A stretch of DNA of 64,000 bases from contig OU696576.1 in NCBI GenBank assembly GCA_916048095.2, positions 643,001-707,000 on the forward strand. Direction: 5' to 3'. This DNA comes from Sacculina carcini (Eukaryota; Arthropoda; Thecostraca; Sacculinidae). The stretch's first letter is position 1. Each line of letters starts with the position of its first letter. The position numbers were made by a program, and so were the translations under genes. Positions 19,101 to 32,026 of this stretch are shown here, one piece after another. The notes under the pieces are model-generated. The model worked only from the letters and a program-made list of their open reading frames with translations, searched no databases and was not told the origin of the DNA.

Positions 19101-22100
19101 CTCGCCCAAAAAATTCTCCTCCGCCGGGTTTCGAACCACGGACGCTTGTGAGGTGTCACGTAGTGTATCTGGAGAGTATATGAGGAAAGCGTGACTTACA
19201 CGACTGGGGACGTATGAAACAAAAGCCAGCCATGGACCAGACGTATGGAACGTATGGACCAGTCACCCTCATAACAATTTGATGTCTCAAACAGATGCTA
19301 GAACGTCGCAATTATACCGGCACAATACTGAGTCAATTTGTGTCATGTTGCAACTCACCGCCTCATCAACAAAACTCACCACTGTTCGTGTGCTAAATGA
19401 ATCGCTCACTGTGTGTGTGTATGTGTGATATGTCTGATACTTCTCTCCCGTAAATTTCCTCCCCATTTTATCTCTTTGTCCGAGCTGCGTTGAAAATAAT
19501 ATCAGTGATAAAGGATATCTTATGGATACAACAAGAATTCCTAGGATATCTTGGTGTAACAAAGACATCTTGTCGCAGTGGTATTATTAATTATACCTTG
19601 TCACAGTGGTTATTATTAATTATACCTTGTCGCAGTGGTTATTATTAATTATACCTTGTCGCAGTGGTATTATTAATTATACCTTGTCGCAGTGATATTA
19701 TTAATTATACCTTGTCGCAGTGTTATTATTAATTATACCTTGTCACAGTGGTTATTATTAATTATACCTTGTCACAGTGGTTATTATTAATTATACCTTG
19801 ACGCAGAGGTTATTATTAATTATACCTTGTCACAGTGGTTATTATTAATTATACCTTGTCGCAGTGGTTATTATTAATTATACCTTGTCGCAGTGGTTAT
19901 TATTAATTATACCTTGTCACAGTGGTTATTATTAATTATACCTTGTCACAGTGGTATTATTAATTATACCTTGACGCAGAGGTTATTATTAATTATACCT
20001 TGTCACAGTGGTTATTATTAATTATACCTTGTCGCAGTGGTATTATTAATTATACCTTGTCGCAGTGGTTATTATTAATTATACCTTGACGCAGTGGTAT
20101 TATTAATTATACCTTGTCGCAGTGATATTATTAATTATACCTTGTCGCAGTGTTATTATTAATTATACCTTGTCACAGTGGTTATTATTAATTATACCTT
20201 GTCACAGTGGTTATTATTAATTATACCTTGTCGCAGTGGTTATTATTAATTATACCTTGTCGCAGTGGTATTATTAATTATACCTTGTCGCAGTGGTTAT
20301 TATTAATTATACCTTGACGCAGTGGTATTATTAATTATACCTTGTCGCAGTGGTATTATTAATTATACCTTGTCACAGTGGTTATTATTAATTATACCTT
20401 GTCACAGTGGTTATTATTAATTATACCTTGTCACAGTGGTTATTATTAATTATACCTTGTCGCAGTGGTATTATTAATTATACCTTGTCGCAGTGTTATT
20501 ATTAATTATACCTTGTCACAGTGGTTATTATTAATTATACCTTGTCGCAATGGTATTATTAATTATACCTTGTCACAGTGGTTATTATTAATTATACCTT
20601 GTCACAGTGGTTATTATTAATTATACCTTGTCGCAGTGGTATTATTAATTATACCTTGTCGCAGTGGATATTATTAATTATACCTTGTCGCAGTGGTATT
20701 ATTAATTATACCTTGTCGCAGTGGATATTATTAATTATACCTTGTCGCAGTGGTATTATTAATTATACCTTGTCGCAGTGGTATTATTAATTATACCTTG
20801 TCACAGTGGTTATTATTAATTATACCTTGTCGCAGAGGTTATTATTAATTATACCTTGTCGCAATGGTATTATTAATTATACCTTGTCACAGTGGTTATT
20901 ATTAATTATACCTTGTCGCAGTGGTTATTATTAATTATACCTTGTCGCAGTGGTTATTATTAATTATACCTTGTCGCAGTGGTATTATTAATTATACCTT
21001 GTTGCAGTGGTTATTATTAATTATACCTTGACGCAGTGGTATTATTAATTATACCTTGACGCAGAGGTTATTATTAATTATACCTTGTCACAGTGGTATT
21101 ATTAATTATACCTTGTCGCAGTGGTTATTATTAATTATACCTTGTCGCAGTGGTTATTATTAATTATACCTTGTCACAGTGGTTATTATTAATTATACCT
21201 TGTCGCAGAGGTTATTATTAATTATACCTTGTCGCAATGGTATTATTAATTATACCTTGTCACAGTGGTTATTATTAATTATACCTTGTCACAGTGGTTA
21301 TTATTAATTATACCTTGTCACAGTGGTATTATTAATTATACCTTGTCGCAGTGGTATTATTAATTATACCTTGTCGCAGTGGTTATTATTAATTATACCT
21401 TGTCGCAGTGGTTATTATTAATTATACCTTGTCACAGTGGTTATTATTAATTATACCTTGTCGCAGTGGTATTATTAATTATACCTTGTCGCAGTGGTTA
21501 TTATTAATTATACCTTGTCGCAGTGGTTATTATTAATTATACCTTGTCACAGTGGTTATTATTAATTATACCTTGTCGCAGTGGTTATTATTAATTATAC
21601 CTTGTCGCAGTGGTATTATTAATTATACCTTGTCGCAGTGGTTATTATTAATTATACCTTGTCGCAGTGGTTATTATTAATTATACCTTGTCGCAGTGGT
21701 ATTATTTATTATACCTTGTCGCAGTGGTTATTAGTAATTGTACCTTGTCGCAGTGGTTATTATTAATTATACCTTGTCGCAGTGTTATTATTAATTATAC
21801 CTTGACACAGTGGTTATTATTAATTATACCTTGTCGCAGTGGTTATTATTAATTATACCTTGTCACAGTGGTTATTATTAATTATACCTTGTCGCAGTGG
21901 TTATTATTAATTATACCTTGTCGCAGTGATATTATTAATTATACCTTGTCACAGTGGTTATTATTAATTATACCTTGTCGCAGTGGTTATTATTAATTAT
22001 ACCTTGACGCAGTGGTTATTATTAATTATACCTTGTCGCAGTGGTTATTATTAATTATACCTTGTCGCAGTGGTATTATTTATTATACCTTGTCGCAGTG

Positions 22101-32026: not shown

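Follow-up and report, generated by a model that had tools for sequence, protein, structure and literature searches.

How can an intron come to hold more than four hundred copies of its own 5' splice site, and what sets the correct copy apart? We examined this question in a Tec-family kinase gene of Sacculina carcini (Arthropoda; Thecostraca), which lies on the minus strand of the analyzed window, a 64,000-nucleotide (nt) stretch of contig OU696576.1 (C8:643001-707000). Positions are those of the window unless C8 is given, and a slash marks an exon-intron or exon-exon joint. The second intron of this gene is almost filled by a tandem array, each unit of which joins the last nucleotides of exon 2 to the first ones of the intron. 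Very probably, the array is a mirage-type minisatellite, which was amplified from the exon 2/intron 2 donor junction and grew by unequal exchange or slippage. Within a single intron, 401 donors share the same nine positions (-3 to +6), and one alone gives the right protein. The locus offers a natural experiment on the choice among equal donors by position, exon definition, and quality control. In addition, the same build occurs in this genome at 2, 5, and 413 copies, so that the birth and growth of such repeats could be traced.

Tandem Repeats Finder (TRF) detected one array at positions 19569 to 31421, with a period of 29, 413.4 copies, and 95% matches. A wrap-around parse on the minus strand yielded 413 full units (GTATAATTAATAATAACCACTGCGACAAG) of 29 types, 277 of them 29 bp and 136 of them 28 bp long, plus an extra copy of the 12-nt exon part. 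The original prediction for this locus, made from the letters alone, had placed about 410 copies at 19568 to 31600; the array is real, and its span is corrected here. The array measures 11.9 kb and occupies approximately 93% of intron 2, leaving a remainder of approximately 880 bp (18689 to 19568). At 12,721 bp, this intron compares with 253 to 866 bp for the 11 other measured introns of the gene, some of which have approximate boundaries.

The array ends at 31421, inside exon 2 (31410 to 31590, minus strand). Its first copy starts within the exon, and each unit comprises 12 nt of exon and 16 to 17 nt of intron, much as predicted (about 12 plus about 16 nt). The last 12 nt of exon 2 (31410 to 31421; CACTTCGACAAG), which form the exon part of the first copy, equal the corresponding part of the unit (CACTGCGACAAG) at 11 of 12 positions, and the sole difference is synonymous (Leu codon CTT versus CTG). 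By hand arithmetic with equal base frequencies, the chance of at least 11 of 12 matches in a fixed register is approximately 2e-6. The exon 2 tail scored 19; the next best score among the tails of 59 other sampled loci was 17, a small margin.

The exon-intron boundary spanned by the unit was set by homology. Joined exons 1 to 3 matched the Pfam profiles of the PH domain (4.3e-17) and the BTK motif (4.8e-11), in the order that characterizes the Tec family, and joined exons 10 to 13 matched the tyrosine kinase domain (6.1e-72). Among PDB chains, exons 1 to 3 matched Tec best (2lul_A, E 9.5e-33), with BTK chains next in rank. Exon 2 encodes the second half of the PH domain, as judged from its reading frame and the Tec/BTK alignment. 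The displayed Tec and BTK alignments cross the joint between exon 2 and exon 3 (18452 to 18688, BTK motif; start firm, end approximate) without a gap, and the joint reads LRQ/VCRNN in frame, so the exon side fits the protein family as the prediction had held. The native 5' splice site (AAG/GTATAA) has its GT at 31408 to 31409, and both predicted splice sites of intron 2 are backed by protein homology. The "kinase exon 2" of the prediction is thus confirmed as an exon of a Tec-family kinase, more exactly as the second coding exon. Exon 1 (31844 to 32058, minus strand) has its ATG at 32026. By eye, it seems to begin with an acceptor (32058), so that the gene may have an untranslated exon further upstream.

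We also searched the whole genome assembly (264 Mb, 43 contigs) by pattern counts. The genome-wide numbers of exact 19-mers (257) and of 31-mers with up to three mismatches (370) equaled the window's own counts, and the repeat unit was found nowhere outside this locus. Rfam gave no match within the window. In the intron 2 remainder, an approximately 240-bp repeat (18878 to 19118) has an inverted copy at 48389 to 48632, with 92% identity.

The copies have retained the splice signal. GT is kept in 412 of the 413 units, and the array stretch contains CAAGGT 411 times and AAGGTAT 401 times, in agreement with the predicted preservation of CAAG/GTAT in nearly all copies. Among the 412 GT donors (native donor included), 401 share one sequence from -3 to +6, and for 346 the identity extends over -6 to +9. 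Unit-by-unit donor scoring, which had been proposed with the prediction, gave the same pairing energy with the U1 5' end for those 401 donors and stronger pairing for 5 decoys. What sets the correct donor apart is where it lies and which exon it adjoins; its nine bases do not distinguish it. Hundreds of decoy donors, most of them frame-shifting, had been foreseen: if used, 284 of the 411 decoys would put the reading out of frame, and each of the 411 would lead to a premature stop, which lies within retained units for 410 of them and in exon 3 for 1.

How the array changes can be read from its variants, some of which are locally clustered. The commonest is a one-base deletion (124 of 413 units). 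Next come changes at the single CpG of the unit, where T replaces C in 88 of the 413 units and A replaces G in 23; these suggest methylation. A run of 1,435 bp (25770 to 27204, minus strand) is identical to a stretch 1,407 bp further on and corresponds to a duplicated block of 49 units. Since this run is exactly identical, the duplication is probably recent; in the one assembly examined, it agrees with a possible length instability.

On this basis, we propose the following course. The exon 2/intron 2 junction (12 nt of exon and 16 to 17 nt of intron), which in its ancestral single-copy form would read CACTKCGACAAG/GTATAA, would have been duplicated in tandem. The array would then have expanded by repeated unequal exchange or slippage, including the 49-unit block duplication. 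Both the anatomy and the small arrays elsewhere in this genome support this part. The simplest reading is growth outward from the junction, as originally predicted, and two myosin arrays (L010 and L013, see below) speak in its favor; the direction we infer. Splicing would use the exon-proximal first donor, and the array would hence be tolerated. Because each decoy gives a premature stop, the products of decoy use would be lost to decay as noise. First-donor use and decay are expected from published mirages and from the premature stops.

Several points weigh against this course. The last copy closes in the same register as the first one begins, with a full 12-nt exon part, and is followed by unrelated sequence unlike an intron start. 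A plain tandem duplication of one segment fails at this edge, because the trailing sequence is not the intron start; what is needed is an early 12-nt direct repeat at both ends, or edge loss. Short flanking direct repeats have been proposed as seeds of minisatellites, and the 12-nt stretch present at both array ends resembles these. Furthermore, the T of the exon's own copy occurs in no other copy (CTTCGACAAG is present once in the window's minus strand), and no second match of exon 2 was found in the genome at E up to 1, which leaves no copy for comparison.

We also weighed other explanations. It is unlikely that the array is kept for a function in which its hundreds of donors, by binding U1 or slowing splicing, determine the kinase level. 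According to a review, a higher number of copies of the human CBS repeat goes with lower enzyme activity (PMC5188458). In our array, the columns CAAG/GTA have the fewest variant copies (2) of all 29 circular 7-column windows and contain 2 of 19 kinds of variants versus approximately 4.6 expected. However, the donor 9-mer shows no clear deficit (4 of 19 kinds versus approximately 5.9; both expectations were calculated by hand). Constraint on the donor columns is at most a hint, and selection on the decoy donors is unsupported. The shared U1 pairing energy, exceeded by the 5 stronger decoys, also speaks against a functional array. Masking of decoys by RNA structure fared no better. A 191-nt fold at the end of the exon gave an apparently strong signal (z -3.5), but a block of the array was equally stable when reversed, and 17 of 40 arrays of shuffled units folded as well. 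The number of decoys at least as open as the native donor was 358, 67, and 34 of 411 at windows of 80, 150, and 300 nt, respectively; the widest window somewhat favors the native donor, and the narrowest favors the decoys. With a mere hint of constraint and no support for self-masking, the buffering of U1 or tuning of splicing that had been considered with the prediction was not borne out.

It is quite unlikely that the array is older than the exon end, i.e., that an existing minisatellite extended into the exon and gave it a new donor together with its last four codons. In favor of this, both edges of the array share one register, as those of an inserted block would, and the exon copy differs by one base from every other copy. 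Against this, ALRQ, encoded by the last four codons, aligns gaplessly with the PH-BTK region of Tec and BTK, the one differing base among the 12 is synonymous, and the unit was not found in the rest of the genome.

Two further explanations invoke splicing within the array. The motif TAATAAC occurs in 285 of 413 units and TACTAAT in 15, and we take both to resemble branch points. Because each unit is a complete AG/GT joint, most with the branch-point-like TAATAAC, the exon end would be recreated at any inner copy. A self-correcting ladder, in which decoys are cut out stepwise and the exon end is always recreated, would be harmless and, if true, would explain growth to 413 copies; we regard it as improbable. 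Highly improbable is a self-erasing array, in which splicing of the first donor to an AG anywhere inside the array would excise whole units and re-form the junction. The same motifs and the 411 CAAG/GT joints would suit it, but the sequence before each unit's AG is not pyrimidine-rich, and nothing shows that an AG within the units is used. Finally, that the array merely adjoins the exon and resembles its end by chance is next to impossible: many introns of this genome carry tandem repeats, some 10 to 30 nt past a coding match and lacking clear exon sequence, but the in-register match at 11 of 12 positions contradicts chance, and none of the 59 control tails reached the score of exon 2.

We next return to amplification of a donor junction and to its occurrence at other exon ends of the genome. 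The survey covered 59 coding matches (30 myosin loci, 14 of 30 kinase loci, and 15 MCM loci) and the 13 exons of the host gene; 21 kinesin matches were added and checked for arrays by TRF only. The remaining 16 of the 30 kinase loci (L053 to L068), which are long open frames belonging to large families, were excluded. An in-frame stop follows within 90 nt past the match in 49 of the 80 matches (35 of 59 and 14 of 21), which therefore probably terminate close to an exon end; for the remaining 31, the match may stop within a longer exon. In L010, L013, and L032, the end of the exon was placed manually, in L013 2 nt short. Outside the host gene, donor-spanning arrays were found in 2 of the 80 matches (49 likely at an exon end), with 2.0 and 5.0 copies; the sample is small and nonrandom, and both clear cases are in myosin genes. 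At L010 (exon read as ...CTAGAG/GTGGTT), an 86-bp unit that includes 27 nt of exon is present 5.0 times. At L013 (donor read as GACAG/GCAAGT), the array has 2.0 copies of a 112-bp unit, and a 45-nt exon-end piece occurs twice, exactly. A third locus, L023 (23 bp, 15.1 copies), scored 15 versus a control maximum of 14, and 14.0 versus 11.0 in another test; it is possibly a mirage with a lost donor.

Other candidates were rejected. A second mirage at exon 8 of the host gene (93-bp array, 14840 to 15136) had a tail score of 13, which was equaled by 11 of 59 control tails. L027 ranked first (16 versus 14) but was not counted, since the tail scored lies beyond the read donor and the match to the profile continues through a stop; L032 was set aside because its match also runs past a stop. 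We also set aside L073 and L077, which are GT-rich, and L035 and L079, which reached 11.5 versus a control maximum of 11.0. Exon 2 itself is inconspicuous in the test that gave these loci, because its exon part has only 12 nt. The donor-side hits at L019 and L025 and the acceptor-side hits at L020 and L023 look like neighboring duplicate exons of myosin genes. In the pairs L019/L020 and L023/L025, neighboring exons match the same part of the myosin head and are perhaps mutually exclusive. On the acceptor side of the sampled matches, no array was left after duplicate exons and GT tracts had been set aside. Such (GT)n tracts often precede 3' splice sites, both in the Tec gene (12660 to 31590) and in the sampled matches. 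A TG run of at least 5 within 300 nt upstream was present on 43 of 88 acceptor sides versus 20 of 89 donor sides. CA runs were present on 10 of 88 acceptor sides versus 14 of 89 donor sides, a weak excess. CA-rich repeats lie near the donor in some introns, and pairing of the intron ends would be conceivable.

Tandem repeats of exon-intron boundaries are known. They were named mirages at amphioxus Adh3 and later described in globin, troponin C, and PGBD5 genes; mirage minisatellites are reported in cephalochordates (PMC3087553, PMC3902484). Regular splicing is suggested to be undisturbed by them, and somatic length changes are cited at Adh3 (PMC3087553, PMC3902484). As in our array, many copies of the amphioxus mirages (Adh3, globin BflGb6 and BflGb9, troponin C, PGBD5) keep the splice signals, and the repeats are homogenized within and have distinct edges (PMC3087553, PMC3902484). 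The Adh3 units have 10 to 72 bp, compared with 28/29 bp here. In contrast to our 413 units at a 5' splice site, BflGb6 has 6 and 3 units of 150 to 160 bp at a 3' splice site, and BflGb9 has a 157-bp duplicate at the end of exon 2. Reverse transcription-PCR and haplotype data exist for the amphioxus mirages, whereas the Tec-kinase array is known from sequence alone. The human CBS gene contains a 31-bp variable number tandem repeat (c.1444_1467+7; 16 to 21 repeats) that spans an exon end (PMC2630376). Its unit is of similar length, with 24 nt of exon end and 7 nt of intron start, but its copies are approximately 20 times fewer than those of the Tec-kinase array. It has also been proposed that new introns arise from mirage-type repeats (PMC3087553). 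In human genes within segmental duplications, tandem repeats likewise occur at boundaries and can change splicing; these are described as a source of new introns, whereas the Tec-kinase joint already fits its family without a gap (PMC2812944). A literature search, which reached few subscription papers, found no array with hundreds of donor copies. The Tec-kinase array thus belongs to a known, rarely described kind and has an extreme copy number beside the figures found; what is new is its size and the small survey of exon ends.

Further exons of the host gene lie at 12527 to 17585 (minus strand) and include the kinase domain, with profile matches at C8:656451-656597 and C8:657561-657713. The introns mark the DNA as eukaryotic. 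The SH3 and SH2 domains were read by eye from unscanned open frames. The hand-set boundaries of exons 3 to 9 are approximate, and the joined reading loses the frame there (exons 4 to 9).

Elsewhere in the window, TRF detected a second large minisatellite (44138 to 46016, 21 bp, 89.5 copies). On the minus strand, its unit contains TACTAG/GTTCAA, and the array begins and ends with TGTACTAGGT. It comes after a GT-rich tract ending in CAG and may therefore be another junction array; no exon was identified at this array. A 2.8-kb duplication (33158 to 35917 and 55160 to 57924, 95.6% identical, approximately 22 kb apart) holds part of what we take to be a GalNAc-transferase gene. On contigs C20, C24, C31, C11, C23, and C29, we observed many kinase-domain matches with near-equal scores in long open frames, some of which hold several domains in a row. 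On the same contigs, more than 20 matches to the kinesin motor are full-length, each within a single open frame.
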